From assembly GCA_035772785.1 (NCBI GenBank), contig JAOCPU010000049.1, positions 231,927 to 295,926 on the forward strand: a DNA stretch of 64,000 bases. The letters run 5' to 3'. The notes below the pieces were generated by a model, which saw only the letters and a program-made list of their open reading frames with translations, ran no database searches and was not told the origin of the DNA. A program made the translations under genes and the position numbers. This document shows positions 22,072-64,000 of this stretch, in pieces. Within the stretch, counting starts at the first letter, position 1. Each line of letters starts with the position of its first letter. This stretch comes from Phlebiopsis flavidoalba (taxonomy: Eukaryota > Basidiomycota > Agaricomycetes > Polyporales > Phanerochaetaceae).

Positions 22072-23484
<1,413 letters not shown>

Positions 23485-36480: not shown

Positions 36481-39400
36481 ATGGCAAGAAGACGAGGGCC
36501 GAGAAAGACGAAATCGACGTCCGTAGTGATGAAGGATATAGAAGACGACGTGCGCCGGGGGAAGAAGCGCACGGAGTTACGTTCACGACAACACTTTACT
36601 CTACACGCCTCAGGAAGCCTTTTGAAGCATCGAGCCGAACAATTTGAAGAAGGAGAAAGATGTCGAGCCTCAACAAGAGACTGAACAAGCTACAGCCTCG
36701 GACGAAGCATAACGTCGCACGCGGCCGATCGTGACGATGACGCGTCTCATGCCGTGAATCAACACACACACAAGATCATATTCAGGAGAACGAACCAAGG
36801 TCAGGAAAATCAGGAAACAAGCGAGGGAGCAGAGTGGTAAGTGAGTTCGCGGCGAGGAGAACTGCATACTTATCGGAACTTAAGGACCGTCTCGCGGATT
36901 GGATGCCGTTCAGGGACGCCTACCTGGACGAAATGCTACGGAGCCCACGGCGTTGACCAAGACCAATGCAGCTCGTGCATCGAATGCGGCGCGCAAGGAC
37001 GAGCTGCTATCGATGTCGTGACTGTTTCGGCCAGTCCATGATGTGCCAGACGTGCGTGGTGGGCGCGCACAAGTCCCTAGCGTCGTTACATCGCATCGAG
37101 GTAAGCCCAAACGTGTCCAGCGTGCGTGTATTCTGCTCACCAGATCTCAGCTATGGAACGGCACCTTCTTCTCTTCGGAGAGTCTTGCCAATCTTGGTCA
37201 CATCATCCACCTGGGACATCAAGGCTTGCCGTGTGTCCCTCACACAATCCCTCGAAGTCAAACTTCATTGTCACCGACGTCTCCGGCATACATCGCGTCA
37301 CCGTAGCTTTCTGCAAGTGTTACACTCAAGGCATTGGCTACGTTCCTTACTATGCACAACTTTTACGCGAGGGATGGTTCCCGACGTCTCAACGCCGCGT
37401 GCGGAGCGGCGTTTCACGTTCGCGGTTCTCGATTTTTTTCTTGGAGCAGACCCACCAAGGTAAAACAAGCCTTCATGATTTCTACAAGAGTCTCGACCGT
37501 ATTACGGACCCCGGCCAGGTGTACACGAAGCCGGGTAGTGAGTTATCGATGCACGCTTTGTGCAATTTTGCACTGATCGGCACCTGCAGTTTTATGTATA
37601 AACAAATGTTTCCAAGTTGTTCGACAGTATCGACACCTCAAATTATTGAAGCGAGCGCGGACCCGCGGGACATGACCCTGACGGAGTGGATGGCACGAAG
37701 GAGGGTAGTCTGGCAGTCGAGTGTCCGGCATGTCCGCACCCTGGACGGAATATGCCAGCCGACGTGGACGATATACCAGAAGGTGACCGGTGGTGAGCAG
37801 TATTTTTTATTCTTCACTATCATGTGTCTTACTATTGCGGCATCATAGATGGAAGTTCCAGCAGACTCTCATGATGGACGCAAATTTTCGGCTGAAGAAT
37901 GAATGAGACCGTGGCGCCAATGATGTTGCGCTATGCCCTGGATGGGCCTACTGTGTTGAGACGAGCCGTTTCAGACGGCACGTCATGCAATTTGGAGACG
38001 CTATTGCTGAGGTTTGTTTTGGAGCCATTCTCTTTGCAATGAATAACCTGATGATCAATGTGTTCAGACCAACACATGTAACGCAGAGCTCAATGCCATT
38101 GCTAACGCCAACAATGCCCGAAGAGGTTACATTGCATCCGGCGTGGGCGTTGTTATGTGTGCTCGGCACTCGTTTGTACGTCCAAAGGCTTTTGGTGACT
38201 TGCAGAAAGGTGAAAAGTAAGGCTGGTCAACTAGTGGCTCATAAATTATGCTGATCTGTTGGCAGGTTTTGTAACATGGATTATCTTGTACTCTCCACAC
38301 TACAAGGTGAAAATCCTGTTGCCGTTGTGCTCACCTACGACATCGCATGCCAATTTGAAAAACGTTGGCTCCGACGTCTGCTTGGATATCCTGAGGATCT
38401 TCAAATAGACATTGACTCCTTCCCCATCCGCTTTGCCATTCCCAAAAAGCACTGGCCAGTCCATATGGACCTGATCACTCTCGCTATTCCCTTAATTTCC
38501 TCCTCCATGTTGGTCGCACGTATGGTGAAGGTGTTGAGGCTGGGTGGGCACACATTAACCCGGTGTCGATGAGTACAAAAGAGATGTCCCCAGAGGCTCG
38601 CAACGAAACATTTGACTCTCATTGGGACGCCTATAATTTCCAGAAACTTGTGACACTCGGTAAATTGTTGTCCTATGGACTTGATTTTAATTAAATGATA
38701 TTTTTTAGGGACTCATCTTTTACGCCAGCTAAAAGATGCGCACAGTTCTTATGAAAATCAGCGCACTATATTCCTCGAGTTTAGTGCTACGTTTCCTGCA
38801 ACAATTATTGAGAAGTGGACATCGTGGATCAACAAGTGGTACGCCAATCCAAAACACAAGCCAGATCCATTTGAAGAGACAGCTAGTCGTATGTAACAAG
38901 CACCTTTTTTTTTCATGACTCTTACCAACTTTCAGGTACAACAATGAATGATGTTCGACTTCACCTTGCGCAAGAAGAGGACGTGGAAATGTTGCAAGGC
39001 GACATTTCATCCCACGATATTACGCCAAGTCTATTTATTCAGATTGGTCTTGACCTTGAAGAACAACAGTAAGAGTTAATAATTATGTGTCTTAGAAAAA
39101 TTTTGCCAACATAATTTAGGCGAATTCTTCAATCAAAGGCCCAAGGCAAGAAGACTGTTCGTGAGCTTGCAGACTTGCAACAGAAGCGTTAACGCCCTTC
39201 GCCGACGCATCCATGTGTGGCGAACTGCACAAGTTTATTATTTTCCTGCTGTCCAGATGCTTCTAGAAGATAGCGGAGAAGAGGAACCTAGCAACGATGC
39301 AGAGAAGCAACTGCTGATGCCGATCACTTTGATCACCAAGACATTGGCTCTACCCAACATCCCTTCCCTGTCGAGTCACTTGTGCTGTGGCTTCCATCCC

Positions 39401-40148
39401 AACTTCCAAACTCAGCACCTCTTTCATCAGCTGCACGCAAAATAAAAGCTATGGAGCTTCGTTTTGCGTCAAACCCAAGCAGAAGATGCTCTTGCCGATA
39501 TTCGACGACTTCGCCGACTCCTCACATCAGTGGCTCAATTCAAGCACTTGAATGTTTCTGGCACCGGGCAAAAGGCAAACACACGTGTTCGAGCATCATA
39601 CGATAAGTTCCAAAAGCGTATTCAGCTTGCTGCTCAGCGATATCGTGCAGCCTACGCAGCCCTTGTGGCTTTACAACCACAAGGTGCATGGACACAGTCT
39701 TTCCGCCAGCTCCATGATAGCGATATTCGTGGGCCCGGTAAAGATGACGATGGTGTCATCAATCCGCATGAAGGTCGCCGAGAAATATCCTGGATCTGGC
39801 GAGTTTTTCAAGCAAATCAACCAGACACAACAACGGTGGACATGTCTTCACAAGAAATTGCCGAAAGCATGCGAGTAGAATGGATGCTTGCAAAAGCTCG
39901 TGTCGATCGTTGGCAAGAAGAAAAGGAGTGGCTTCTTATGGAAATGCAGCTGACTTTGAAATTTCTTGAATGGAAAGGTTCATGGTGGCATGCCCAAGCA
40001 CGTCGACTTTAGTGGCAATGACAAAGTGTTGTTGTCTGGTATCACAGCATATGCAGCTGAGCAAGAAAATCTCTTTTCCAAACTTGCTGATAAATTTGCT
40101 AAAAAATGGCTAGTATATTTGAAAAGAATAGATAGATATTACTCCTAG
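36481..40148 (+). CDS. KDZ transposase with CxC2-type cysteine cluster, element 1
   Basis: DDE-type transposase of the Kyakuja-Dileera-Zisupton superfamily that would cut and insert the element. It starts MARRRGPRKTKSTSV, a basic lead. The cysteine cluster follows: YRCRDCFGQSMMCQTCVVGA, then HKSLASLHRIE, WNGTFF, SLANLGHIIHLGHQGLPC. Further pieces are LLREGWFP, GKTSLHDFYKSLDRIT, WYCVETSRF-like sequence in a shifted frame, MCARHSFVRP and GDLQKG, and MDYLVLSTLQ. VLTYDIACQFEKRWLRRL contains a catalytic Asp (38,339-38,341). HVGRTYGEGVEAGWAHIN carries the conserved GEGVE glutamates (38,524-38,538). The tail has RPGKDDDGVINPHEGRREIS and ITAYAAEQENLFSKLADKFA. The stop at 40,148 follows a one-base frame change. 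Many introns and indels. Confidence 0.9.
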
Positions 40149-40319
40149 CTGGAGTTCAAAGTATGGTAGTACTTTGGCACAAAGTGAAAGTAGTTCAGAT
40201 TCCAATAGTAGTAGCTCAGGAACTGATAGTGATAGTGACAATAATATATAGATAACAAAATATCAATTACATTTTACTTTTGAATATATATGATATCAAA
40301 CACAATACTTTGCTAGCAA

Positions 40320-43213: not shown

Positions 43214-43444
43214 CTAGTCCTGCTCAAACTCGTCTTCTAATAATTGAGTCATAATGTCCAACCCTTGAGCCCATAGAAGTGCTCGTGGTTGCCAGATTTC
43301 GTTGGGCAACCCAATCTCTACTTCCCTTCTTCCACGCCCTGCTGATCGGATGACCTCAAGCGTTGGATATCCTTCCTCCCCTTGCTCTTCCGGATGCAGT
43401 CCATAGCCGTAAGGTACAGCTCCTGCTTCACGCGCCATCGCCAA
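43214..43444 (-). pseudogene. C-terminal fragment of an unidentified, possibly transposon-derived protein
   Basis: An open frame of 76 codons with protein-like composition: GYPTLEVIRSAGRGRREVEI, GLPNEIWQPRALLWAQGLDI and a final MTQLLEDEFEQD. It has no recognisable start and is cut on its upstream side by the repeat beginning near 43,490. The WxPRALLWAQGxD pattern looks like the tail of integrase-type basidiomycete transposon proteins, but I cannot confirm that. Confidence 0.35.
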
Positions 43445-43501
43445 TGCTGCACGGAAAGTGTCCTGCGTCTCTTCTGTCCCAAATCAGGCGTGGGTGTAGA
43501 T

Positions 43502-43590
43502 GTTTTACAAAAAAGCCAGACATTCCTTGCCGCTCGTATTGTAAAACAGCCAGAGATTTTAGGCGCAAGCGCCGTTCGTTTTAAAAATGG
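43502..43590 (+). repeat. Dispersed repeat, copy A (inverted relative to 63.9 kb)
   Basis: GTTTTACAAAAAAGCC, ATTCCTTGC, TATTGTAAAACAGCCAG and TTTTAAAAATGG occur in the same order and spacing as on the minus strand of 63,983-63,901. Identity is about 75-80% by eye. Confidence 0.7.
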
Positions 43591-43822: not shown

Positions 43823-46800
43823 TCAGTCGCCACCATCGAACTCGTAGTCCCCGGCTTCTTCTTCATCTTCCTCTAGCACAAGCTCCACGAAGGCTTGAAG
43901 GCGGGGCCGCGGCGGTGCTGTGGTCTCCTCTCCGACTGCGCATGTCTTGTCTTTCACAGTGTTGTTGGTAGCTGCAACAACGGTGGCGTCCCCGTTGAGC
44001 ATGTCGCGCGCCGCCTTGATGATGGGGGACCACGCCGTTTCCCAACGATCCGCGAGTGCTTGTTCTTGGGCGGCATGTTCGAACGCGTATGCGCGTACAC
44101 CTTCGCGGATATGTGGCGGAACATCTTGCCGCAGCGTGGCGCACGCTGTCCACCATGAGGCCTTCCAGCGTGCATACGCAACGGCACGGCGCATCTCCTC
44201 CATCAGGAGACGAACCTCTTCACGCCACCGGTCCGCACGCGCCTTTGCTTTCGCCCACTCAACGCGAAGGGCTGTAGGCAATGAGCATAGATGCAGGCTG
44301 CAGGGTGAGCCACACTTACAGTCTTGTATACGAGGATCATCGTCGTCGTCAGGATCCCCCGAGTCTTCCACCCAAATCCACGACAATCTCCTACTGCCCC
44401 TCGCCGACCTGGACGCCGTCCTGAGTTGGAAGCCCGTATACACCCTCGATAGGGAGATCTGCCGCGCGCCGAACCTCTGCACGTTCCGTCATTTCTTGAG
44501 CACTGAGGGCGCGGTCATTCAGGGAGCGAATGTCTTCGTCCTGCAGGACCTTGAGGGTTTTCTCCCAGTCGCCTGGCCCGCGTAGATCCAGAAGGGCCTG
44601 TCGAGCAATCCGATACACCAGCGCGGGCCGCTGTTGCCCGTTTCTCGATGGTGGCCTGCCAACTACGAGCGCGGATGTTCGCGCGCGCGCTGACCGGTCA
44701 CATTCTTGACCTTGTACTTATTGGCGAACATCCTCGTGCGCAGCGCACGACGAAGGTCGTCTAGTGCCTCATGTGCCTGAGCCTCGCGTAGACGGGCCTC
44801 CAGTTTGATGAGAGATGCAGGGGGAAGAGGTAGTGCGGCAGTGTGTGAGTTGGGGAGAGGAAGGGAGATATAGCTTGATCTCTTCAGGTTCAACCTCTTG
44901 CTGGTCGTCTGCTGCCCCATTGGAATGAAATTGGACTGTGCTTGCTAGACTTGGCATGAATATTGACTGGGCCTTCCGGAATTCGACGATACGGCGACGG
45001 AGGAGCTTGCTTCGGTCAAGTCGAGCAACCTTGTCAAGCGGGTTTGGCGTTGGGTCCGATGCCCGCGCTCGGCAGAAAGAGATCGCCTGCATGAAGTATC
45101 AGCACTACGCGCAGGGTCAGGAGCGTCTTCATACTGACTGTAGTCCTTCAATCTCTAGGCCTGAGACGATGAACGCGAGCGGTGATTGCCCTGGCGCACT
45201 GGCAGCGTCGAGACGTTGTTGATCCCCGGGCTTCCTCTTCGGCAATCTTCTGGCGAACCTCGTTTAAGGACATGGCTAAGTTGATAAGTAACAAGTTTAT
45301 CCAGTGGCAGAACATACTCACTCTTCACCGTGGGGAGATATGGACACGGGAGGGAGGGCGGTGTCCTTCTGCCAAGCTTCAAGGGACGTGACCCACTCAT
45401 CGACTTGGCCGGCGAATCGTTCACGGAGTCGAGCATCGAAAGCCTCGAACTCCTCGATATGGACGCGAGCCTGACGAACGGCCACAACGAGACTGCGCGC
45501 CATGTACTGCACTAGGTTGATATTGAATAAATGGCTCGGTGGCAGAGGCAGGATTGTACTTACAAAGCGCCATCTGTTTACGCCAGCCCGCGAAGGAGCA
45601 GAAATCGTCGACGGTCTCGCGTCGAGCGGATGCACCCATCTCCTTCACGCTTGGGGCTGCCTTGTTGAGCCACGCCCATAGACGTTCGACGCCTTCGCCA
45701 CAAGTGCGGCCGGCCCCAATCAGCCAGTTGAGAGAATAGGGACCATGGCACGACGTCTTGTGCACCTCGAGATGGGCCTTGGGCACCTTAAACAGATACG
45801 TTCGACCGGGAGACGTTGAGGTGGAGACGCGACGGTAGGTGCGGCATGCGATCCCAGAAATTCTTGAAGAATTGGCAGGCGATGTCGTATGTTGCCAGAA
45901 GGTACAAGGTCGTGACACCGACCAGCGCAGAGAGAAAGACGTAGTCGACGTTGCAGTAACTGTATGGACATCAGCGCGTGCTTGTGAATGTTTCATGTTT
46001 CATAGTTGCTCACCGTTCTCTCACACGTTGAAGGTCGCCTACGCCGTTTGGACGAAAGCATTCATGACGGCACGAGCAGGCGACGATACCCGTCGCACTC
46101 AAGCCCTTGTGCCGCTTCATATCCGCTTGGCCTACAGCACGGTGATTCACACAGTTTGAAATCTGATCCTCGTCATTCAGCTTGTCGTCGAAGGTGTATA
46201 CGGCTCACGTACCTCGTCTTGACTGGCGTACTTAGGTGTAATGCTCCGCGTACTTTGTTGTCTCCACGAAGTAGGACCAACCCGGGAGACAGGCAGACGT
46301 CTCCCTTCGTGCTGTGGCGATACCTGCTCTTCACGCGGAAGTTGCAGTCCGTTGAAATGACCTGGCGGTAGAGAAAGCTTTGGGTAATCAGCGACAATGA
46401 ACGGCCGCGGTCGAAACAAGACCTACCTATCCTCCGGCAAAGCCCTCTCCCAGCCGTCCGGAAGGTTGATGCCGGGATGAGGACACGCGCGACATTGTAC
46501 TGCTAGTTCTCCCTCTTGGGTTCCGCTGACACAACCGGGTTTCCGTTGCTGGCCTCTTCCGCCTCGCTTCAAGGATTGCAAGTTGCGCCACTCGCGGATA
46601 ATCGTCATGAATGTTTGACGTCGATCCTGTGAGTGGCAGTGGTCAGCGTAGAGTACAAGCGTATCGAGTTGTGACTCACCGGCAGCTCTTCTCCCTTTCC
46701 CAACCGTCCGTCAAGAGCTCGAGGCCAAGGTAGAAGTCGTACGCCGTAAGGTTGCCTTGCAGGTTGAGGGTATGGAAACGTTCTCATGACGTCGAAGGTC

Positions 46801-47711
46801 GCGCAGGTTTCGGGCTCGAGGGGGTGTTGCGGGATACCATGCTAAGCATAGTAGTTGTTGGCGGCGCTCGAAGTTTGGCTGGCAGTGACAGAAATATACG
46901 TTGACTTTGTGGATACCGTTGGTGTGGAGGACGACAAGGGTCTTGAGGACCGCGCGATTGGGGCAGTGGTTTCCCTTGACGATGGCCGAGTTTCTGGACG
47001 ATGGAACCCAGGGACATTAACGAGACCTTGACGAAATATTTGCCCTGCCAGTGCTGATGGACATTGTGAGTACGATAGAAGTTGTTTGTTGAAGACGATG
47101 TATTTACCTCGATACGGTGCAGTGGCAGGAAAGCGTGACGGTTCAAGCAACACGTCTCGCAGTAAAGCTCTCTGTCAAAACACTACCGAGCACCCCGCTC
47201 GAGACCGTGGGTCGACGCGGCCACACCCAGCACAATAGTCGTAATCGGGACAGTCTGATACCGCGCCCTTCCAAACCGAGTATCTCGTCCAAATACTCGT
47301 CTCGATAGGTGATCCAAGTCGAGAGCGGCACATCCTATCTTGAGAAGATCAGCGTAAGAACTCGAGTAAGGATTAGACTTCTAAAGACTGACTGAGTTGA
47401 GATAACGAGGGGCCTTAGTTGTGGCCCGCACAACCAAACCGTCGATTTCCTGGGCAAATTCTTGTATCTCTGCTTCGTCGTACTGATATAGAGGGAAGGA
47501 GATGGTGTTGTGTCAAATTCATCTCCGGGGAGGTCGACTGCTGGGTAGGAACGTCTTGCACGTCGCGGACCGCAGGTGGATGCTTGGCGCCGCCTCTTCA
47601 AATCAATGCTGTCGAGGCGGGCGATCCGACACCTTCCTGGAAATAATGCGAGTGGTTGTAGAGCTCAGCCACAGGCCGCTTCTTCTTCTTTTGCCCGACT
47701 TTGGGCTTCAT
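43823..47711 (-). CDS. KDZ transposase, element 2
   Basis: Second, clearly different KDZ transposase. It starts MKPKVGQKKKKRPVAELYNH at 47,711. A cysteine-cluster region follows, with EILGLEGRGIRLS, then NRHAFLPLHRIEV and YFVKVSLMSLG. The strongly conserved block around 46,430-46,600 is MTIIREWRNLQSLKRGGRGQ, EGELAVQCRACPHPGINLPD, GWERALPED. After that: FRVKSRYRHSTKGDVCLSPG, VNHRAVGQADMKRHKGLSAT, ECFRPNGVGDL. LYLLATYDIACQFFKNFWDR has the catalytic Asp at 45,884-45,886. VPKAHLEVHKTSCHGPYSLN and RTCGEGVERLWAWLN carry the glutamates (about 45,680-45,720). The tail reads VKEMGASARRETVDDFCSFA and ends EEAGDYEFDGGD. Frame breaks are present, but all key motifs are. Confidence 0.92.
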
Positions 47712-48239
47712 TGCCGTTGAACGTGGGGGGTGGGAGAATGAAGAGTGAGTTGTAGGCGCGTGTGGGTGGGAATGATGAGAGCAGGATTCCTGTAAACATG
47801 GTCACGTGAGTTGGAAGGTGATGGAAGTCCTTCCAAGCAATTTCTTACTGCATCAATAGATCCATTGACTTGTAATGAGCCCTAGGCAAGTGTTTAATGC
47901 ATTAGCTACTGCCAGCTGGCTGTACCTGTGCAATGCATTAATCTCCAGCCAGCTCGGTGAGGCTTCTGCAGGCGTGGCTGGGGGGGTTTGAATGCCGTTG
48001 ATGTACACACCATTCTGGGAATGTAGATTAGATTGAGCTCTCTGGTCTCTTATCTGTAAACCTTGCTGTGTTGCCATCACATCCGATGGTGTACTCGCGC
48101 GCGCCGCCTGCCGGCGCTCACTGCGCTCTCTCTTTGTCTTTGTTTGTACGCCCGCACACTGCCAAATTGGGCACGCTCCCGCGCTGCGCCTTGCATGGAC
48201 CGGATTGGGTGCCCTATTTGGGGGCTCCCTTCTATTAGA

Positions 48240-48950
48240 CAGCATGTACATTATATACAAACTCAAATGCGATTGTAATTGCGCTACTATGAAGGCTATA
48301 GGTAGTTGTAATAAGCCTGTACTAAAATTCGCAATAAATGATGCATAAATACATATATATTTGTGTGCTTTGTGCAGTCCATTTCCATGGCTGTAGATAC
48401 ACAATGGGGTAAATTGACAAGGCTTCTAATGTGTGTACATATTATTCTCAACATTATGGCATTAATTCACCTGCTTCCAGTCATTAAAATAAAATATTAC
48501 CGATAAATACGTATATATATTCGAAAGAGAAGTGCAGAATGGCTCTGCAACACTAGTAACCTGGCTTCATACATATGAAACAATACAGAGACCAGTATCA
48601 TAGTTGTAAATGATGGCAATGCTCAAGGGATGAGTGTATAATGCCAAGATGTCCTCATGTTGCAATACAGCCACTCAGGCAGTACATAGAGTAAATGGAT
48701 TTACATACTACAATCATGATGAAATATACAAACTGTTTTACACCCAAATAACACATTCTCCTTGTGCACAAAGAGTTTTTCAAGGGGGATAAGCAACCTG
48801 GGAGCAAATGAAGTAAATGATGAAAACACATGAGCCAAGGATAGTTATCATGGATCTGAAGGCATCAGATACATTGAGAGGTTATAGGAAGTAATACAGG
48901 AGGCATATCACTTATGATTCCACCGCTGAGAAAGCACCGAGAAATAAAAC
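48240..48950. other. AT-rich non-coding part of the 3.3-kb element
   Basis: About 0.7 kb of AT-rich sequence without open frames of note or clear tandem structure. Confidence 0.5.
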
Positions 48951-49599
48951 GACATTTATGAAGATAGGCGCCCAGTCGAACGTCGAGGAGAAGGGGAGCC
49001 GGATGAAAGAATACAGCTCCGGGTTGCTAATCGAAGGGCATGAACATCCTCTCTAGCAATGTAGAGAGCTTGTGCATGCCATCCGACAGCAATGGAAACG
49101 GTGGAGTGATGATTAATTGAGGCACTCACCTGTTTGTGAGCACATACGGGTGCCCTCATTCCAGGAAGGCCATTCGATCGTTAGTAGGGCCTATATCGTA
49201 GATATGCAATCGTTAATATGTCTAGATAATGTAGAGAATGTTTCAAATGAACGGATAAGCCTACGTGACAGAATGAATGGGGTACATACCGGTTATAACA
49301 GGCCAGCCCTTGCGCGCCGAGTTCCGTTGTAGGCGTACGTCTAGTGGCTGAAATAAGAAACGGACTTCATAATCGAGTTCTACATACTGAAAAAACGGTG
49401 GTGTGAGTGCCTTCTGTTGTATCTAGCCAATCGTGTGGTGGATGGAAGGTTGAATGCTAGCGAAATGGAGGAGAAGTTGAGCGAGCGACGAGGTGAAAAT
49501 AATGATTTCCCTGAGATGCGTGGGAACTACTCACCAGAAGGTAGCTGATATTCCCCTGAACACATCCCGAGACACGCCGAAACGACCCGAGAAACAGTT

Positions 49600-50815
49600 C
49601 GTGCGAGAGCGCACAGTTTGTGGTCGCCCGAGGCTGGCCGAGGCAACCCAGAGGTCGCCCGAGGGCTAAAGCGCCCAGGTCTGGTTGTCCCAAACCACCA
49701 CCCTCGACCGTCGTTCGCGAGACGGCGGTCTCTACCTTCTTTCTCGATGCCCAGCCTGGCCCTTCCTAGAAGGACTCTGGTGTGCCTCCTCCCGTTTCTG
49801 CTCCACCTGGGAGCCCGGTCGTCAATCCGCGCTGCCCAGCCCCGCGCTCGGCCACCACGACCACGGCGACACCCACGACGAACCCCGATGCCTCAACAGC
49901 GTCGAAGAACGTCGGAGCAGTGCACTCGGTGCATGCTCCAACGTTCCATATGGGCAGGGCACGGCTACAAGCTTCTGGGACAAAGGTGCGTGGCGGGCCG
50001 TGTTTGGCTACACCATAGCAGCTAACCCGCGAGAACCCCACCGCCAAGCAGCGTGGAGGACGATCCGAATCGTCCTCCACGTCACAAAGGTGCGTTACTC
50101 ACACACTGCCCTCCGTACTCACCGCTCCTGCGTCCCCCAGCGCAGACATCACCTCGACCACCCACCCCCGGTTCTGCCAGCCCACCACCGCCGCCGCCGC
50201 CACCATATTGCGTCAGAAGCGACGCATTATGGTTGAGCACCGGCCGTGTAGAGCGTACAGACAAGTACGCCTACGTCCAGGCGTGCGGGGGCGCGCCCCA
50301 GCTACCCCATTATCCGACCTCCCCACCCCCCTCCCACTCGGCTCTCACCGGCCCCACGCCCTCCCTCACCGTCTCCGTCATGCGTCAGAAGCGACGCAGG
50401 ACCCCTCGCGAACACGGCGCCATCAAGCGGTGCGCACACTCCCAGCAGGGTGCTGGATCCCGCGCCCCTGCGCGACCCCCGTCTCCACCGTCCCTCCCGC
50501 TCCCACGTCGTCCAGACGCACATCATTATGTGCGCCGAACGGATGGAAGCCAGGGGTCCATTGGTGCCCACCGCCCGCCGCGCGTGCGCTCGGCGGCGCC
50601 CCCCACGACGACCGCACGAGCCGCTGGCCACCCTCAATACGCACATGCCATGCCGCCTCGCCTCGCTCACGCGCTGGTGTGCGCGCCGCTTCTCGAACGT
50701 CAACGCCATGCTATTGCCCAGCGCCGTCGCCCAGCACCGTCGCCGTCGTCGCCGCCGCCACCGGCGCCTGGTGCCCGCCACCGCCCGCTCCGATTAAACC
50801 CCCGTAGCACATATA
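49600..50815. other. GC-rich core of the 3.3-kb element, coding status unclear
   Basis: Frames of 100-255 codons open on both strands and are dominated by Pro, Arg, Ala and Ser. The + frames contain low-complexity proline stretches and a Cys-containing segment, VGAVHSVHAPTFHMGRARLQ, but no known domain. It may be a degraded passenger gene or merely biased composition. The sequence TGCGTCAGAAGCGACGCA occurs twice (50,209-50,226 and 50,381-50,398). Confidence 0.35.
50209..50398. repeat. 18-bp palindromic direct repeat, two copies
   Basis: TGCGTC-AGAAGC-GACGCA at 50,209-50,226 and 50,381-50,398. Each copy is itself a 6-bp-arm hairpin. Confidence 0.75.
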
Positions 50816-50981
50816 TATAGTGTTTTTATGTACATGTAGAGTAGTTTAGTTAATGAAGCAATGATTTATACCTAAAAAGTATGAAAAAGCCCGAGAAAAA
50901 GCGAATTTAATCGACGCGGCTGGGCGGGGGCGTGCCATATTAGGCAGCCGTCGGTAAAGCGCCGCGGGCAGCGGACGGCGG

Positions 50982-51056
50982 ACAGTAAATCAGACGCTCG
51001 ATAACAGCCCGATAACAGCCCACCGCTGTTATCTGGCTGTTATCAGTGTTTTACTG
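50982..51056. repeat. Compound hairpin near the right end of the 3.3-kb element
   Basis: GATAACAGCC at 51,000-51,009 and again at 51,011-51,020 face GCTGTTATC at 51,025-51,033 and GGCTGTTATC at 51,035-51,044. An outer pair CAGTAAA / TTTACTG (about 50,982-50,988 and 51,050-51,056) extends the structure. Confidence 0.8.
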
Positions 51057-51274
51057 CATTGGGTGAGGTTCTGGTGATGCTGCTGCAGCATATTCAAACC
51101 CAGCTCGCAGATAGAAAGCAGCCGATAATGCATTAAACTCTACCTGGAGATTAATGCATTGCGCTTTACAGTCGGGGCTGGCATATAATGCATTAAACAC
51201 TTGCCTAGATGTGTTGTAATTACGACTTCAATTGGCTCTAATATGATATGTAACATCACAAGATTAACCCAGCC

Positions 51275-52827
51275 TCAACGCGATCCTGTTTGCAGTGATT
51301 TCACAGTTGAGAAAGCCTCAATGGCTTGTTTCCAACGTGTACTACGCGCAGCCACTTCCGCGTCAGCACGCTCCTTGCTTGCAGCTTCAAAGTCTTCCCA
51401 ACGACGGAACCCATAATGAGCCCATCGAAAGAGTCCGCCCGCAGAATATTGCGTGAATGAAACTCGAGACTCGTGCGGGGCCACCGCGACGTTACCGTGC
51501 CTCAGCGTGGCGGACGGGATAATGATGAGCGAGCCTGGAGGAAACTGGATGACGAGCTTCAATTGGCGAAGGATGAGGTGGCCGCCGGTCGCCGGTAGTA
51601 CGAAGTCCCCGCCACACCAGATAGGACAAACGCCATTAGCTTTGTTGCCGAAATCCGAGTGCTCGAAGGTCACAACTCTACCAAAGTTCACCGAAGCCGC
51701 GGCGAAGATGCTCTCGTCGTGAGCTCGGCGTAGGTAGGGCTGTTTTTCGAGGAGGGCGGTGATGTTTTCTGCGTATTCGCGATACAGTTTGGGGAAGTAA
51801 TAAGCAAACATGCCTAAGGACGTGGTCAGCGAGAAGGATGCTACATATCTGATACACACGTACTGTTGCCCCAACGCACAACACACGTCGCACATGGGGA
51901 TCGCTGTATAGTGTATCAAGGACCTTCTGGTTCCACTTGCTGAGTCGAAGGTTACCCGGTTTCTGTAAAGACATGAGCATTCACACCCAAGGAATAAAAC
52001 GTGCGCCCCTCTTACTGTCTGTCCCCCACCGTACGAGACTCCGGACGCTATGGTACGGAAGCAGCCTCGTCGATCCTGTTTCTTGCCGAACTTCAGCCTC
52101 TTCTCTGCCACGACAAAGCCTTCTGGACACCGAGGGTCGTTTTATCCCAAGTGGGGTCGTTCACTAAGGCCTTCCAGGGAGCGCGGCAAAGATGCGCCCC
52201 TCCGTCGAGGTGAGGCCCATTGGATCTCTACGGTTCGTCAGTACGATTAAGGTAACCATGTTCCAAACTTACCGTCCATTCCATTCCATCACCTCGAAGC
52301 CCTCACTCCGGAGTTTCTTCAAGGGTAGGCGTTCGTTGAGCGACGTTCAGGTCTCGCCGTCCGATGAATGCACCCTTGGCCCACGTGAGATTGGCGAGAC
52401 TGAAGCCCGTCTTCACGTGTGCGAGGCCAATGTTTCGTGCGGATACGCTGGAGCGTATCTTGTGTTGCACAGGATCCCGGGAAGCGGCCTGCATTTCCTT
52501 ACGCTTTCGTTTACGCCTCGCGTACTTGCCTCGCTTGGCGTGGTTCAGAGACTTGTTGGGCTCGCTGGCAGAGGCGGTACAGGTCGGGTGGACGTCGTCG
52601 CCGTCGTCATCGCTGGATTCGACATTTGAAGATGCCGCGGTGTTGAATAAGGGTTTCGTTAAGTGTATCGGATATTCGGGGTGGCCTGTGGCTACTGGGC
52701 TGAGTAAGGGGGAAGCCGGGGGCGACGACAGGGGGCTCGAAGATGGAGAAGACGGCGGCGAATATACAAGGTCTAACCCCTCTGAATCTGACAAGTTCTC
52801 CTTTTCCCGCTCATCCTCTAGATCCAA
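51275..52827 (-). CDS. TET/JBP-family 2-oxoglutarate/Fe(II) dioxygenase
   Basis: Fungal member of the TET/JBP family, which oxidises 5-methylcytosine or thymine bases in DNA; the substrate here is untested. Exon 1 (start 52,827) is MDLEDEREKENLSDSEGLDL, a Ser/Pro-rich acidic region and a basic KRGKYARRKRKRKEMQA patch. Then SEGFEVMEWNGR and a GT..AG intron at about 52,273-52,220. Next come AALPG, GVSYGGGQT, an intron, KPGNLRLSKWNQKVLDTLYS, an intron, then MFAYYFPKLYREYAENITAL and IFAAASVNFGRVVTFEHSDF. Fe ligands are H (51,659-51,661) and D two residues on, plus H in PSATLRHGN (51,497-51,499). The 2OG arginine is in RVSFTQYSAGGLFRW (51,464-51,466). The frame does not join perfectly near 52,165 and at the third intron, so it is either indel-affected or recently dead. 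Confidence 0.85.
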
Positions 52828-53130
52828 CGCCCTTTGCAGCAGCTCCCCCCAGATCCTCCGTCGTCTGACAAGTCATCTTCACTCTAATGGCGAGCTCCTT
52901 CATGCAACCCACAGTTGAGAAGGCGTCCTTCACTGCCTTGCCCACATACGGCGAAAAAATCTGTCCAGAGCGTGTTCGTCGCGTCGACATCGTGGCTAAA
53001 AGCACAATTCGTTAGTATCTGGTTCGTTGCTATGCAAAAGAGGGTGACCACGTCACAATATCGCGTGCAAGCCCATAGCACATTTTCGAGAGACATGCTA
53101 CTCTCTCCATCTGGAGAATCCTCAAACACG
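52828..53130. other. Upstream region of the TET/JBP gene
   Basis: About 0.3 kb. A leftward 81-codon frame here (52,884-53,129) has no known motif. It may be 5' UTR or an extra exon. Confidence 0.35.
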
Positions 53131-53990
53131 AATTAGCATGAATTAGTGGAATTCTCCTTACATGCTGTATACTTGAAACAAACAGATGGCTAATGATGCT
53201 AAAACTGCTAATCCGTTAATTCACTACTATCCACATACTTTTTTCAGCTTATTTGAGACTAATCTAGTAATTCACTTGTTTTTTCACCTTTCTTGACCTT
53301 AATCAGTTAATTTGTGACTTTCATTGCTGTAATAGACTTTTAGCCTATTTGCCAACTTACCAGTGTATTATAGCTGGCTTTCTTGTAATTAAGACTTAGT
53401 TGTTTTTTTCTACTGGTTTTAATGCTTATGCATAGCTTTTGGAAGCTTTACCAAGGGGTTTAAGAACTTTTTTCCACACTTTTTTCAGGCTTAACTACTA
53501 TTGTGCTAACTGGCTATTGAGAACCTTTTGAACAGTTTATTATAAAATAAACATGGGTTATATCTGTGAATTGCACTTTTCAATGGATTATCTGGCTGCT
53601 TCAATCTTACTTACTCTACAGTATATTGCTATTCAGCTATTCAATATACTGACAAAAGACTATCAATTTGTGTTTCCCTAATCATTCACTAGTCTGCTTA
53701 CTGATTAAGTTCCTTTTATATAACCACAAAAAACATATTATAATTGTCTCACTGAGATATTGATATACTGCCTGAGCACACAGGTATAATGAGGATGCTC
53801 TCAAGCTTTTCTATTTCAGAATGCAATCATTGAGTGAAAAACATACTCACTATAGACTATAGTAATAGCCCAGTAAGATTCTCTGTACACTAATCTCTAT
53901 GTACCCGGCCCCTATGTATACAGAGGCCAAATTTACCACAGAGTTAGTGCAATGAATAATATGATCAAGATCCTACGATGCGAAGGTTAG
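53131..53990. repeat. AT-rich arm, left, of a candidate element
   Basis: About 0.86 kb with recurring degenerate words such as AATTAGTG, GTTAATTTG and CACTTTTTTC. Similar words occur in inverted orientation at 55,620-56,110. There are no genes. Confidence 0.5.
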
Positions 53991-55610
53991 AACATGGGCA
54001 ACCAAAGCCAAAAAAAACTCACGCTAACGTTTCTCGAGTCGTTCGGCGCTTGTGCTTCAGTCGCGTTAGTGGCTTGTCGATGTTTCATGAACGCCGCCGC
54101 CCGGATTTTGTTCACTTGCTCGTGCGATGAGTCTCGCGATCCGCCCACTCCTGTCCTTGCGAAAGTCTCTCGACGCGTCGACGCGTCGTTTATGTCCGGT
54201 CGGCTTTCCCAAGCGCCCGGGACTCGCCGCGCGTCGACTCCAAGGTCGAAGCGCCCGAGTTCGACTTCACTCTGCCACCACCAGACGTCGTTTGCAAGCA
54301 CGACGGCCGCTCCTCGTTCGCACAGGGGTCTCTTACGAGGCCTCTGATGGACTCTCTTTTGCCCCCCACTGCCCACGAAGTCTTCTCCAACCCGCGCGCC
54401 GCCATACTTGAACACCGCCGTGCGCCCGACTTGCGCACCACCGGGACCGACGAGCCCTACCAAAGGGATCGAAGACCCAGCGACGACAGACAACGCTCCA
54501 AGAGCGTGGAGGACGACCGGGGAGGTGTGCTCGGCACACGAACCGGCCTCCTGCGGGACGGTGCGAGCCTGCGGGCTCCGCGGCAGTCGGTGAGTTACTA
54601 GAACACTCCAAGGACCACAGAGCCATCTGACGACGCTGTCGCGCACGTTACGAACGTGCGCGACAAACACGACACGGTCGGTGAGTTCCCCCGTTCCTCT
54701 TTTTCGACGCCCCCACCCCCGTCCCTCTCGATGCCCGGCCCCTGCGCCCTCCATGGTGCTCTGCCCGACCCCGGCCCTTGTCGACGACCACGCCCCCGCC
54801 CTCGTCGATGCCCAGGCCCCACGTCTCCTCAACGCACGAGCCCCGCCCTTCCTAACGTGCCAGCTCACACTCTCAGCCCTCGCCGTCTTGATGCCCCGGC
54901 CCCCGACTCACTCGAAGCACACCTGCAAGCACGCGCCCACGCGTTTTTTCGATGGACACGCGTCACGCACTCGCACGCCCTTTATGTGCGCGCCCCCATC
55001 CTCATCTTCTCGACGCCCCGGCCCTCCCTCAATGCTTGCGCCTTTCTCGAGGCCCACATCCGCAGGGCCTGCCCCACGACCTCGTCCGCGGATTCCGCGT
55101 TCTGGTCGCGCCGCCCTCCTCGACGTTACCATCCACGTTCGCACGCAGCCCTGCCCACGACCTCGCACGTGCCCCGGTTCATCCCATTTTTCAACGCCCG
55201 AGCCCCGGCCCTCATCCTCCTCAACGCCCTCGCCCTCGCTCAATCGTCGACCCTGAACTCAGCGATCACCTCAGCCCCCGCACCGCACCAGCCCGTCGTT
55301 TTCCGATGCAAGAACACCAACCGAGGCCATCCTGGGGCCCAAGACACCCGTTCGCTTTGCCGGCCTCTCCGTCGGAACGAGCCTCACAATGCCGCGTTGA
55401 TTGCGCGGTCACGCGCACGACGCTTCGCCACCCACCGCACATCTGGTCATACGCATCGCCGTAGCCGTTACCAAAGACACCACGCGCACAGGGCCGCGAC
55501 TTGGTGAGTGCACCTTCACTATTTGAACAACATACCGCCGTGCCCACGCCAGTATAAATAGTGCAACAGCAATGACGGGGCACACTGACGCCCTCGTCAC
55601 CACACTCAAA
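53991..55610. other. GC-rich core of the 53.1-56.1 kb candidate element
   Basis: Long frames on both strands, up to 293 codons, are almost wholly Pro/Arg/Ser/Ala. From about 54,700 to 55,240 a degenerate minisatellite built on CTCGACGCCC and GGCCCC explains most of them. No domain was recognised. A degraded passenger gene is possible. Confidence 0.35.
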
Positions 55611-56150
55611 ACCAATGTGAAATTGAGTAGTGGGTATGAATAGTCTCTAGTGTTGTGTACATGAATGTTACCCCTGTAGTGTGTATGTTACCACATGTAA
55701 TATGTATGTAGGCACAATGTATATGATCATATATATAACCTTCTAAACACCTCAGAGAGCATGCTGGATGCCTAGGATATGATTATACCTATTATATGCC
55801 AGTATATAACACTCTGAAAAATGTGAATTAGTGGAAAAACCACTTAGCTGTGTATTAGCCTCAGAGTACCAAATTAACAGAATAGTCTGCAGAAAGTGCG
55901 AAAAAAGTGACCAAATTAGTTGAAAAAAACCACTTAGCTGCGTATTAGCCTCAGAGTACCAAATTAACGGAATAGTTTTGCAGAAAGTGCCAAAAAAAGC
56001 GACCAATTAGTGAGGTGATAGTGTCAAATTAATGGTCAACCTATGTCATTTGGACACGATTTCCAGAGGTATTAACACAGTTTCACTAATTCACTATTCT
56101 GTCATGGATTTATACTAATGTGGGTGGATTAGTATTTGAAGGTTCCCAAC
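55610..56150. repeat. AT-rich arm, right, of a candidate element
   Basis: It ends ACTAATGTGGGTGGATTAGT then ATTTGAAGG. The complement of this end resembles the left boundary near 53,110-53,145 (CCTCAAACACGAATTAG and ATTAGTGG). Confidence 0.45.
55827..56005. repeat. 88-91-bp tandem duplication
   Basis: ATTAGTGGAAAAACCACTTA through GTGCGAAAAAAGTGACCAA (55,827-55,914) is repeated at 55,915-56,005 with a few changes, and a third copy begins at 56,006. Confidence 0.8.
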
Positions 56151-57812
56151 CAGATGTCGGCAAGTAGAGGGTGCGCGTATCAGGTAAATATCTCTCGCAG
56201 ACACCGTAGAAACCGCATTGTGTGATTCGACAGCGTGCGCAGGACAGAGATTTTTCACCCGTGTCGTTCGCGCTGTCAGATGGGTACTGCCCACCGGCGT
56301 GTCGTGCGTCCGCGATTTCCATCGTAGAAACACATGGTCTGGTTTCAGCGCGGAGAGCTCGGCGTTTTGTAGGTGGACAGACAGGACCGTACATATGCGA
56401 AAGGTAGCAGAGTCTCGAAACGTGAAGCAAGGCACGGTCAACCGCGTTGTGCGATGGTACACGGGGACAACACAAAACCCCGAACGGCACGCAGACGGCG
56501 ACCGAAACAGCAACGCGAACAAGAAACACAGAAAAGCAGTAAAGTATTTAGACTCACGTTACTCTAAACGAGAAGAGCGTCGACAGTAAGAGTGCTGAGG
56601 AGATGCGACGAGCCGCGAAGGTAGAGGTTGAGGAACAAGTCGTGTAGCGCCTAACGCGGGCACTTGGGCCAAAAACTATCTTGAGCGTATGTTGAAGAAG
56701 TCCGTCAACGATTCACGCTTAAGTAAAATTATTCCACCGTAGCACTCTTCACTGTTCACTTACTGCTAAGTATTGCTTTTAGGTACAGACATATTTTCAG
56801 GGCAATGAACGGCCTGCCATTGACGTTCTTTTACGGTGCATGGATGGGACCTACGTCTGCCTTCGACCCCTCGTGTGGCAGTGACCCGTTAGCACACTAA
56901 AGGACGAGTACGACGCTGAGGATATTTGATATGATTTAAGTCACACAGAGTAAGCAGAGCCCGCGCCGAAATCTCCTAGACGTGCAACTACAATATGGCG
57001 CAGTGTGGCCGGTGTCTTAGGGCGGGTGGCTTCTCGTAGTTCACGTAGAACTTCTACATAGACTGAGGAAGTAGAACCGTAAGCGTTTAGTAGAAGTAGA
57101 ACCGTAAGCCGTAGACAGTGTAAATTATGCCTCGTATGTGAAAGATATGCTTCATGGCATGGCGGGAATGGTACGCGGTGGACTGCGTGTATGCATTGTG
57201 CGCACGGCGTAAACGGTCCGTCGCACTTTGGAATAGGATGCTCGCAAGGCCTTGTCTAACCGTAGGTATGTTTTCAGGTACAGAGCCAACGTCTTACTGT
57301 GCACAAATACTGCGCCGTACTTGATAGAGAACGAACCACTGAGCACTGCATGTTCGGGTACTATTGACACGACCTATCGCGCATCACTTGCAACGGTCGA
57401 TCCGCGAACACGGCACTCTCATTTCAAGTGCGTGCTTGCGTGGGCCGGTTGTCTCGAAAGCACACTTCTAAGCTAGCCTACTTGTGATCATACATACCAT
57501 ATGATTCACGTTTGCATGGTAGCACTACTACAGCTTAGCCCTAGTCTTACACAAATCTAGAGAGCACCACAAGGTGGGTAAGTTGCTGTTATCTCTGTGT
57601 TGCGGCAGACATCCCCAATAAGCATCTTCAAGGCCTTTTAACGAATGGAATTACCTCACGCGGTGCTGTATCGCAAGATATGCCTCACACCGAACTCAAC
57701 GCACACTAATCTCGAAGCAAAAGTTGCCTCTTTTAGCAGTTAAGATACCTTTTTGGAACGTTTAGGGTTAGGGTTGGCACACTTTTCCGTCATAAAAATA
57801 ATCCAAGAAAGC
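56151..57812. other. Unassigned sequence
   Basis: A 1.66-kb stretch. Overlapping frames of 120-139 codons at 56,110-56,589 on both strands have no known motif. A short imperfect direct repeat, AGTAGAACCGTAAGC, occurs twice at about 57,070-57,110. TTAGGGTTAGGGTT at 57,762-57,775 resembles two telomeric units but is too short to mean much. Confidence 0.4.
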
Positions 57813-58058: not shown

Positions 58059-59834
58059 CTAAGGAATAATGAGTGTCAACAACACCCTGCACATGAACTC
58101 AACATACCAATCATCAAAGACACCGCAATCGGTGCCTCTGAAGACGACGGTCCATCCCTTGCTGGGAGGATGAGTGCTCCTGAGGAACCAGTAGTCAGCG
58201 GGACGTGGCAGGTCAGCGAGAGGCGGGACGGGAGGGACGACGCGACGATACTTCGGGGAGCGGCGCGTGAGGTGTTGGATGCCATACGGATGGGCCTCCG
58301 CGCGCTGGTAGTAGGCTTGGGCCTCTTCGCGAGTGGGGAACTTGACGCAGTTGGACATCTGGATGCTGCTCGTGTGCCGTTTCGCCTCTTCAAGGCCCAT
58401 GTAGACACCAGGGGTGTCACCCCACAGCACCGCGTACCACGCAGGCGGGAGGGGACGAAAGCTGTTGAAAGATTACAATTAGTACTACTCGTAAAAGATG
58501 AACGAGCACGCACGCAATTGGCGGCGCAGCCTCTTCCTCGCCCAACTCGTCACTAGTTATACATGATGAGTCCAATACCTTACACAACAAAGATGTCATG
58601 CAACTTACCCTGGTTGCGCCGGGACAACATGAGGGAGCGGCGGAGTAGCTGGCGGGGGGTGTCGTGGGCGGCGACAAGAAAGGCGGCGACGGTGGAGACG
58701 GTGGAGTCGCAGGCGGTGGTGTAGGAGGCGGAGATGGGGCGGCAGATGATGTTGCGGGTAAGTGCGACGCGGGCGGCGGTGTTGCGGGCGACGGTGCTGC
58801 AGGACCGAGGGACTGCGGAAGGCGACGAGACGACAGGCGGTGGGGTAGAGAGGACTGAGAAGGATCATACGGAGGCGAGGGATCAGTAGACGTCGAGGGG
58901 TGCCGCCGTCGGGCACGACGAGGCCTGACCGAAGCCATGAAAGTACTCTCTCCGGAATCTGGGACTGGGGTATATGCGGGAGGGAGGCCATTGGAGCGCC
59001 GCAAAGTCTCGACCTCGCTCCTCACCTCCTCAAGCTCAACACGAAGGCGGTCCTGTCGACGCGTACTCTCGATCTCGAGCTCGTCGAGAAGCGACGAGAG
59101 CATGGCGTCGAGCGAGTTAGGACGAGGGCCACTGGATGGACTCTGCTCACTACTACTGACAGCTACATCATCGCGCGCAAGAGGAGAGGGAGACGAAGAC
59201 GACAACATAGAGGACGACGGACAAGACGCAGACGGCGGCGAAGATGAGATAACTGACGTGGGCGGCGGCGCAACAGCCGACGACGAGGGCTGCGGTTCGC
59301 GTGACGACGAGGGTAGTGAATAGTCTTGAGGCAAAGGAGACTCGGTATGCTCATCCGGCAAGGCGGCTGGCATAGAATGATGAGCGTCGTCAAGGATTTC
59401 GACGGCGATGAACGACGTACCTCCGCAACTGTCACCTGGTCGTGTATCGCGAGTGACGGGCAAAAAGAAGACGCGGCTTGGGGAAGAAAGAACCTTGTCC
59501 GTGGACGAAGGCGAGACGGGTGACACCGGCGGGGAGACTGAGTGGTGGGACGTGGGTAACTATCGCAGGCGACGACGGCGGGCTGAGAGTGCTGGCATAA
59601 GTCTTGCTGATGCCGGTCTGCCCTGCAGATGGTGAAGCAGCGTCCGGCGTTGCGAAAAGACGATCCTGCCCGGCGGCGGGCCCGCGCTGCTCAGGCTCCG
59701 GCGACGAGTCCCTCGATGCTGAAATAGTGTTAGCGTGTCAAACGTGCGGGGAAGATACACTCACACGTCGTCACAGACGACATCGAGAGATACAAGTCGG
59801 AATCGGTGTGTCGCTCGAAACCGGACGCCGGCAT
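58059..59834 (-). CDS. Protein with coiled coil and two RNase H1 N-terminal (viroplasmin-fold) domains
   Basis: Starts MPASGFERHTDSDLYLSMSS at 59,834. Intron 1 (about 59,765-59,720) has GTGAGT...TTTCAG borders. Ser/Pro-rich sequence follows, then a coiled coil: DAMLSSLLDELEIESTRRQD and RVELEEVRSEVETLRR. A proline-rich linker and an intron come next. The C-terminus carries domain 1: WYAVLWGDTPGVYMGLEEAK, MSNCVKFPTREEAQAYYQ. After YWFLRS a second partial copy reads GWTVVFRGTDCGVFDDW. In RNase H1 this domain grips RNA-DNA hybrids; here no catalytic RNase H part exists. It resembles passenger gene 2 of the KDZ element (same domain, same low-complexity layout). The end near 58,059 may be cut by an unseen intron. 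Confidence 0.75.
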
Positions 59835-60149: not shown

Positions 60150-62823
60150 TTAGAATGAATGAGAAAGGTGGGCTAGCCACCGCGCTTGGTGCGCTTTCGT
60201 TGGCCAGCTGAGCTTGCCTGCTTGCGCTTGGGCGCAGTGGCGCGATTGCTGTCGTGTGTCGTTAGGCCGAGCGGTACCCACGGATGGCGTCGCTTCGCTG
60301 CGTGTGAACAGCCATGTCAGGTCTTCGAGAACGGCCTCCCAATCGGCGCGCATGCCTGCGTGATGGTTGCAGGCAAGGGACCGCCCAATCCAAAGAAGTC
60401 CGACCATAACGAGAAAGATCCCGTTACGGCCGTGCTTCAACATGCGGTCGAGGGCATCGCGTGACAGGGCGACCCGCTCGAGAGCCGACGACCCACGCTC
60501 GGCGGGCTGCAGTGCGCGATACCATTCTTGAAGGGCGGCGGCGAAGGACTTGATGTCCGCGATGTCGGCCCCTGCACGAGATCGCTTGGTCTTGAACCAC
60601 ACCTCGTACTCGGCCGGACGCTTGGCGACCTTGTACTGAGCCCCTTGTGGGTCTTTGAAGCCTGCGAGCTGCTCAAATCGGCAGAAGGTCAGTACACATC
60701 TTGTCCAGGAAAGCCCCCAGTCGTGCCCCAGGAGCACCGAGTAGTCCTCCCGAACAAGGGAAGACGCTCCTGTAAAGTCAAAGCTGTCGCGATACCGTTC
60801 GACGTGAGACGGAGATGGCGGCTCATCAGGAGCGGGCGCGGGTGGCTCGGCAATCTGCTCTGCGGAATGTTGAGGGGAGGGTGACACACGCGCACCGAGC
60901 CCGGTGACGTGGAACCGTGGCCGTCAGCGTCAGGCACGGGCGACGCTGACGTGGCAAGCCGTGGTCCCTGCGGAGATTGCGCGGTGGCGACGGACGACAT
61001 GGCGGTGTCCACGGTGAGGTCGGGCGCAGGTGACGGGAGCTGAAGCAAGGCCTGCGAGGGCGTCGAGAGGGGAGTGAGATCCAGCACTCGACGGGTGAGG
61101 GGACGTGGCCGTACGCTGGCTCGCATGCTGGGTGTAGCTGGGTGATGCAGACGCAGTGAGACTCACGTCGTGATCGGCTGGCGTCAGGCCCGACGGGGAA
61201 GCGATGCGGCTATAGGCGGCGTCGGTGTGGCGACAGGCGTGGGCTGTGCTGTGGGCAAGGCCGACCCCAGCAGATGACGCGGGAGTACCAGCGCGCGAAG
61301 GCTGGGCGGGTATCGCGGGCGTGGTCGAGCGGGACGGCCGTGCAGGGGTAGCCGAACGAGACGGCTGGGTGGGTTGGGCAGGCGTCGCTGAGCGAGACGG
61401 CTGGGCGGGCGTAGCGGCGGCGCTCGGGGAGCTGCGGCGGGCGACTCGGGATGGGGTTCGAAGGGAGGCGCCTCACCGAGGCTGCGGTATCGGAGGAGGC
61501 GGGAGGCTTGACGTGACAGCGACCGGTTTCGTCAGGCTTTGTGAGGGCCCTCCTTACTGCGCTCGGGACTTAGTGGGGAGTACAGCCTGCTTGTGAATGC
61601 GACCAGGCTGTCTTCGACGAACTGGGTAGCCCACTGGGTCGAACGTGGGCCATTTCTTTGATCCCGTTAGGTCGTTGTATTCGCCGTGATGATAGCTACA
61701 GCTCGGTGAGCATGTGAGTCGCTAGATATGAATGCGTGCGCACCTTCGAGCCTCGATGTTTACCGTCGTTGGTGGGGATGGGGCCGCACATTAGCACGCT
61801 CACTGCCATTCCCCGTGCGCGCACTGAAAAACTTCGCAAAAGCCTTGTAGGATTGGCCCCCGGCGGCTTGGAGGGCTCTAAAGGCATGTGTGAGCAAATG
61901 GAATTTCGGGACAGATGCGACGTACTTCGCATACTGCTCCGGTGTCGAGGGTGTCAAGGTTGCTGCGTTTGCGTTTGCTTCCTGAGCTGCGGCGAGGCGA
62001 GCCTCGTAGTCGTTGTGATTGGCCACCCTGACCTCCTCTCGAAACTCCGGGGTCTCTTCCTCCCAACGTCTGAACGCAACGGCGCGCAGGACGTTCAGCC
62101 ATTGCGGCTTACTGGATCGCTGAGCGCCATTCGCTTGCCACGCCTTGGTCTCTTCCTCGAGCTCGCGATGCGCGTCGTCTCGTAATCGCGTCTCGAAGTA
62201 TTGCTGACGATAGAACATCACGTCCGACACACGCGGTACGCTTTCTGTTCGTTGGTGCCTTCCACGGCCTCGACGAGTTTTCGGACTTCAGCGACGACTG
62301 TCGCTTCTTCCAGCTTGCGGTAATGGTGGTTGCACCACTCTACTAGCTTCTATAGTGGTTGTTAGCATCGCGGGGTTGATTACTGAGAACACTCACCCTT
62401 CTGCAGCAGCTTCCTGAAGAGCTCCGTTTTTGCTTCCGCCTCAGCTCATCCGACAAATCCGTCAATCCCTGTATACCTTCGAGATAATCCGCGGGTGGCT
62501 CCGGTGGCTCACCATGTATCGTTCTCGATATCTGAGAACGGATCTGGACCCCTTCCGCTCGAGGTCGCCGTCTCTTGGGGCAATCTTGACGAGGCGTCGA
62601 GTTGTCCTGCGATCAGTCGCCGATGAAAGCGAGAAGCTCGCTGGTGAGGGGGCCCCGAGTAGAAGATTGAGACGGCGCCTGGCGCAAGCTTCTCGGCTCT
62701 TTTGGGCAGCCTCCCACGACGGTTTTCCCTCCGCGCATCGAGCAGTCTTCCCCTACGCGAGGCCGGTGGCCCAACCTAGCCGGCCGCGTTTGCGAGGTGG
62801 GTGCGACGCAAGACCTTGCCCAT
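60150..62823 (-). CDS. Large transposon-associated protein of unknown function, second copy
   Basis: Relative of the leftward passenger gene of the KDZ element. It starts MGKVLRRTHLANAAG at 62,823. Then LVEWCNHHYRKLEEATVVAE, VRKLVEAVEG, DVMFYRQQYFETRLRDDAHR, ELEEETKAWQANGAQ and KPQWLNVLRAVAFRRWEEET. The central part (KYVASVPKFHLLTHAFRALQ) is followed by a low-complexity region with an imperfect repeat around ERDGRAGVAERDGW on the opposite strand (61,300-61,440). The C-terminal block is SLVREDYSVLLGHDWGLSWT, RPAEYEVWFKTKRSRAGADI, SALERVALSRDALDRMLKHG and NGIFLVMVGLLWIGRSLACN, then WEAVLEDLTWLF, ending near 60,150. No catalytic motif of a known enzyme is visible. Several frame breaks. Confidence 0.7.
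61290..61445. repeat. Imperfect ~27-bp tandem repeats
   Basis: GAGCGAGACGGCTGGGCGGG and variants recur about five times within the low-complexity part of the leftward gene. Confidence 0.65.
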
Positions 62824-63900: not shown

Positions 63901-63983
63901 CCATTTTTTAAAAACGCTCCTACAATAGCCTGGCTATTTTACAATACAGCGCGCAAGGAATTGAGTTAGGCTGTTTTGTAAAA
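63901..63983 (-). repeat. Dispersed repeat, copy B (inverted relative to 43.5 kb)
   Basis: On the minus strand: TTTTACAAAACAGCC, AATTCCTTGC, TATTGTAAAATAGCCAGG and TTTTTAAAAAATGG, matching 43,502-43,590. The window ends 17 bases further on. Confidence 0.7.
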
Positions 63984-64000
63984 GGCCTACATGGTCTGGT

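Follow-up and report, generated by a model that had tools for sequence, protein, structure and literature searches.

The 64,000-nt stretch of the Phlebiopsis flavidoalba genome analyzed here (positions 231,927-295,926 of contig C49, which stops at base 64,000 of the stretch; in the following termed the window) very probably harbors one copy of a large DNA transposon of the KDZ (Kyakuja-Dileera-Zisupton) superfamily. The unit would span positions 43,485 to 64,000 and carry a third gene (open reading frame 3, ORF3), a gene for a TET/JBP-like dioxygenase (denoted TET) and the KDZ transposase gene in this order, all on the minus strand. Its size is at least 20.5 kb here, or about 14 kb after subtraction of two nested insertions. 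Probably, it reaches the contig end, includes the third gene and is larger than was seen in the initial annotation of this DNA. The locus comprises the following features:

43,485-43,551, no strand assigned: KDZ-side terminus, CAGGCGTGGGTGTAG, then TTTTACAAAAAAGCC and CGTATTGTAAAACAGCC
43,823-47,711, minus strand: KDZ transposase gene, several exons with frame breaks, PF18758 and PF18803 above their cut-offs
47,877-51,213, no strand assigned: nested element 1 (3,337 bp), located between TET and KDZ and bounded by imperfect terminal inverted repeats
51,275-52,990, minus strand: TET/JBP-like 2-oxoglutarate (2OG) dioxygenase gene, with Tet_JBP as sole Pfam family (below cut-off), catalytic residues and purifying selection
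53,108-56,156, no strand assigned: nested element 2 (3,049 bp), ends CATCTGG...CCAGATG, directly upstream of TET
56,204-56,349, minus strand: possibly a 25-bp motif in two diverged copies (7 edits)
60,150-60,923, minus strand: ORF3, an open frame of 257 amino acids with no Pfam family above cut-off
63,932-64,000, no strand assigned: TET-side terminus, CACCAGACCATGTAG... read inwards, its outermost base lost where the contig stops

The association of the two main genes recurs within the genome (36.3 Mb, 129 contigs labelled C1, C2 etc.; all comparisons were made within this one assembly). The KDZ profile yielded at least 32 matches, grouped into 15 loci, and the dioxygenase core as query at least 26, grouped into 15 TET-like loci. 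Seven of the latter, namely the window (C49), C18, C2, C55, C40, C10 and C52, carry a KDZ match no more than 10 kb away, and six of these seven have both genes on one strand, with TET upstream. The gap between the TET stop codon and the KDZ start codon contains no nested element in C18 (197 bp), C10 (173 bp), C2 (250 bp) and C40 (255 bp); in C55 the gap is longer and KDZ more distant. In the window the gap amounts to 3,563 bp, of which 219 bp remain after subtraction of element 1 together with one copy of the target duplication; the initial annotation had given about 240 bp. Homology at the DNA level spans both genes, with 68-72% identity between C18 and C10 and about 69-70% between C2 and C40, identity between units being low in general (mostly 65-72%). 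The initial annotation had placed both genes on the same strand of one mobile unit that was later hit by a smaller element. Both are indeed on the minus strand with TET first, and the notion of a mobile unit is backed by five further same-strand TET-then-KDZ pairs, by the four uninterrupted gaps of 173-255 bp and by a KDZ-side terminus common to four of the six pairs. As a separate observation, the TET-like copies on C111 and C4, neither with a KDZ match, are 96% identical over 2 kb, which points to a TET copy having been duplicated recently.

The KDZ gene runs from an ATG at 47,711 to a stop codon at 43,823, as annotated before. PF18758 (KDZ) matches in three overlapping frames within 46,204-45,424 (70.9, 44.1 and 33.4 bits; cut-off 26.6), and a cysteine cluster N-terminal of the catalytic domain matches PF18803 (CxC2) at 47,016-46,714 (60.1 bits; cut-off 27). 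Judged by these profiles the KDZ identity is firm, bearing out the annotated transposase. The C-terminal part of the protein is conserved in C18, C10 and C40. A second KDZ gene is found on the opposite strand of the window (36,883-40,164, plus strand; CxC2 73.6 bits) and shares 70% DNA identity with a copy on C97.

The dioxygenase gene ends with a stop codon at 51,275, its core exon comprising 51,832-51,275. Gene and stop agree with the previous assignment; the previous start at 52,827 does not, an ATG at 52,990 being more likely in view of an N-terminal motif that it shares with C18 and C2. The profile comparison that had been suggested as a check gave 14.2 bits (E 0.027) for Tet_JBP (PF12851) on the window core, below the cut-off of 34.9, with no other family found; the 464-residue read-through of the gene gave no Pfam family. 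Among the paralogues, Tet_JBP scores 32.2 bits (E 7.4e-8) for the one on C55, which is 52% identical in its C-terminal exon, and 21.6 bits for the one on C1. By way of these paralogues, and not as a passed Pfam member, the protein is assigned as a TET/JBP-like dioxygenase. In such enzymes HxD...H forms the iron site and R is the 2OG-binding arginine. The window protein contains HxD, the distal H and R, as does every paralogue piece covering those sites; this agrees with the earlier statement that both iron histidines, the aspartate and the 2OG arginine are kept. The core is under purifying selection between copies, with synonymous differences (pS) of 0.72-0.81 and nonsynonymous differences (pN) of 0.18-0.35 in five comparisons employing paralogue pieces from four loci, which speaks for the past of the dioxygenase and not for the window copy itself. 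An AlphaFold model of the core exon has a mean predicted local distance difference test (pLDDT) of 39 and is too poor for assessing a double-stranded beta-helix. A PDB sequence search with the family gave nothing useful (best E 0.33 and 0.86, unrelated proteins), and PHROGs gave one weak match for the core, to phrog_24024 (E 0.0014), a family whose function is not known.

The KDZ-side terminus at 43,485 has counterparts at C18:85,077, C10:361,441 and C40:309,423, each lying past the KDZ gene and facing inwards. In these four of the six units, its distance to the KDZ domain is 2.1-3.0 kb. A genome-wide search for CAGGCGTGNNTGTAG without mismatch gave 29 occurrences versus two for the reversed control. 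When up to 2 mismatches are allowed, the left-terminus pattern gives 15 matches in the loci examined versus 5 for its reverse, and therefore only terminus matches without mismatch or with an inner motif were used. With up to 2 mismatches allowed, the inner motifs TTTTACAAAA.AGCC and TGTATTGTAAAA.AGCC are located at 43,503 and 43,535 on the plus strand and at 63,983 and 63,948 on the minus strand, with one extra match of 2 mismatches at 63,937 (plus) within the same right end. Within the window they are confined to the two ends, in inverted orientation. The ends themselves, about 67 bp each, are inverted with respect to each other and 81% identical over 63 columns, so that their pairing as terminal inverted repeats around the transposase is suggested by sequence.

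The same pair of ends bounds small elements at C2:8,623-11,129, where GCATAAC is repeated exactly, and at C2:21,345-24,806 (CGGGGAC/GGGGGAC, one mismatch). These are presumably non-autonomous partners of the same transposase. They flank the same TET-KDZ copy and have a 1.9-kb inner repeat in common (inverted, 90%). For KDZ elements a target-site duplication of 8 bp would be expected, the length also given by the initial annotation, which had proposed a search for outer inverted repeats with such duplications; inverted ends are found at 43,485 and 64,000, while the small elements show 7 bp. Two candidate unit ends were rejected, C10:343,967 as left end of the C10 unit on account of inside sequence of the small-element type, and C2:24,806, which pairs with C2:21,345. 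Directly outside the KDZ-side terminus, where the flank reads CCCAAAT, an open frame of 89 amino acids is located (43,214-43,483, minus strand), for which no Pfam family and no match in the loci compared was found; the unit may have inserted into or beside a gene at this side.

The unit has probably been hit by two nested elements, one more than described initially. The one already described had been placed at 47,882-51,208; the inverted-repeat element is real, and its ends lie 5 bases further out on each side. Homology with a second copy at C10 (81% identity) runs past the 23-bp inverted repeat, which sets the ends of element 1 at 47,877 and 51,213. The 7-bp target duplication TTGTAAT is found at 47,870-47,876 and 51,214-51,220. 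Elsewhere, the duplications are GTCAAAT in C10, CTATGTC in C94 and CGGGGGC/CGGGGGG in C72 (C10 and C72 written in window orientation). An insertion is thus backed by 7-bp duplications at four of the four places examined, one of them with a mismatch. In the genome, element 1 has at least 59 matches (40 of 48 candidates scored), grouped into about 24 places including the window. Its middle part (49,467-50,633) has more matches (about 68-78%) than the remainder, with no evident gene and no Rfam match. For element 2, eight matches begin at 53,108 and one at 53,107, and four finish at 56,156-56,157; no clear target duplication is seen at its ends. An Rfam search of 42-55 kb (E up to 0.1) found nothing.

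A 25-bp motif, approximately CTGAATCGAACAACGYGTTCTAYGG, is present three times upstream of TET in each of C2, C40, C18 and C10. The window lacks the exact motif, and the form in C2 and C40, AATCGAACAACGGTTCT, has no window match at up to 3 mismatches. Five places in the window lie within 7 edits of the motif, at 5,593 on the plus strand and at 62,292, 57,823, 56,349 and 56,231 on the minus strand. The last two sit just past element 2, where the unit should resume. In 20 shuffles of the 56.2-56.4 kb stretch the best places were 8-9 edits from the motif; a position-weight scan based on the motifs of C18 and C10 did not place this stretch among the ten best. As possible remnants, the two places would fit a continuation of the unit beyond element 2, for which they are modest evidence.

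ORF3 has genome matches (E up to 0.01) at five places, the window, C18, C40, C2 and C121, four of which are at TET-KDZ units. The match at C18:96,337-96,912 has an E of 1.1e-12, and here as in the window ORF3 is positioned upstream of TET on the same strand and at a similar distance. PHROGs gave no match for ORF3, a PDB sequence search gave nothing useful, and the structure model (pLDDT 52) is too poor. A piece of 26 amino acids at about 58,107-58,184 (minus strand), which without element 2 would lie about 2.1-2.2 kb upstream of TET, is also common to the window and C18 (50% identity, E 6e-4); it is possibly a further exon or gene.

Several observations count against one large three-gene transposon. 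Both the KDZ gene and the dioxygenase gene contain several frame changes. TET and KDZ are in reverse order in C52, and eight of the 15 TET-like loci (C1, C126, C111, C12, C4, C25, C104 and C29) show no KDZ match closer than 10 kb; two of the contigs (C126 and C111) are short, the C4 locus is near a contig end and C25 contains a 20-residue KDZ-like piece. The ORF3 matches at C40:295,059-295,373, C2:2,265-2,762 and C121:13,643-13,885 are weak (E 2e-4 to 1.5e-3), those in C2 and C40 are upstream of TET but on the opposite strand, and none was found at C10 or C55 in the same genome search. Left-terminus look-alikes that have 2 mismatches and no inner motif are present at 16,226, 47,969 and 58,710. 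No unit with both termini plus a duplication was found, and since the contig stops within the right end, the target duplication of the whole unit is unreadable. The look-alikes and the weak ORF3 matches slightly lower the confidence in the unit as drawn and slightly raise that in a shorter one. Such a shorter unit, in which TET and KDZ belong together while the terminus at 64,000 stems from a neighboring small element and ORF3 maybe lies outside, is unlikely. Small elements with the same two termini do exist, one of them upstream of TET in C2, and the contig stops at 64,000; however, no other left terminus with inner motif is found between 43,485 and 64,000, where two of the look-alikes lie, and ORF3 is not only placed alike in C18 but is near four of the six TET-KDZ units. 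It is highly improbable that TET and KDZ are separate repeats adjoining by chance. The region is repeat-rich, with the second KDZ gene lying on the other strand (about 36.9-40.2 kb), and the eight unpaired TET-like loci fit such an explanation as well, but the same order, strand and gap of 173-255 bp are found in four units besides the window, and DNA homology runs through both genes in C18/C10 and C2/C40.

The large transposon could also be a dead relic with both transposase and dioxygenase as pseudogenes, a serious contender against which we lean slightly. It would explain the frame changes in both genes, the low identity between units and the two nested insertions. Against it stands the strong purifying selection between copies, which as stated above concerns the past and not the window copy. 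Furthermore, an HSP70 gene elsewhere in this assembly (C1:1,810,150-1,811,950) shows repeated frame changes when the three-frame translation of its coding strand is read by eye, so that the breaks in TET and KDZ may be sequence errors. Being one gene, this is a small control; in its light the breaks are not simply readable as decay, and the dioxygenase gene may or may not be intact. Zinc-finger repeats, which we take to be ZZ-like, extend over two frames at 22,204-23,189 of the window, a further hint of indel errors in the assembly.

As to the substrate, no mutational trace of CpG methylation is present in the data examined. The observed/expected ratio of CpG is 0.94-1.16 in nine stretches tested, and C-to-T/G-to-A differences between two copies of element 1 are not commoner at CpG (57/817) than elsewhere (171/2,131). 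The C5-methyltransferase profile PF00145 has no genome match, which is weak evidence, as is any empty family search here, because the Tet_JBP profile likewise gave zero matches against the whole genome despite 15 related loci. Since neither a C5-methyltransferase nor CpG decay was seen in the assembly, a base other than 5-methylcytosine, e.g. N6-methyladenine, is a real alternative substrate.

In the proposed mechanism the KDZ transposase of the large unit would act on the CAGGCGTG/CACCAGACC ends and would also mobilize small elements with the same ends, giving 7-bp duplications. The dioxygenase would be a passenger that oxidizes a modified base and in this way edits a base mark, most probably on the DNA of the element itself. 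This oxidation could serve escape from host silencing or accessible ends. More speculatively, and in our view rather doubtful, strong purifying selection might maintain the dioxygenase of a three-gene KDZ transposon in a genome without cytosine-5 methylation, the enzyme working on another base or on marks placed by the element and serving transposition rather than demethylation of host 5-methylcytosine, with ORF3 as a new partner protein.

The association of TET with KDZ is itself already known; Iyer et al. (PNAS, 2014) reportedly described basidiomycete KDZ transposons associated with TET/JBP genes. The present unit resembles these in its CxC2-bearing KDZ transposase, its linked TET/JBP-like dioxygenase and its many copies per genome. 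Beyond that, the terminal sequences, the 7-bp duplications at small elements sharing these ends, the repeated 25-bp motif and the third gene are resolved here, with no claim of their being unpublished. The CcTET enzymes of Coprinopsis cinerea are said to be TET/JBP-type dioxygenases of a KDZ-bearing genome. Enzyme type and genomic setting are thus alike, whereas the window family is without a useful sequence match in the PDB. The main text of PMC5890265 mentions neither KDZ nor TET.

Why transposons carry a DNA-base-oxidizing enzyme is an open question on which this locus bears. Six comparable TET-KDZ pairs, four with the same terminus, together with the upstream motifs and the third gene, turn it into concrete, testable parts. 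Should the apparent absence of both a C5-methyltransferase and CpG decay hold up, it would speak against the simplest answer, the erasure of 5-methylcytosine.

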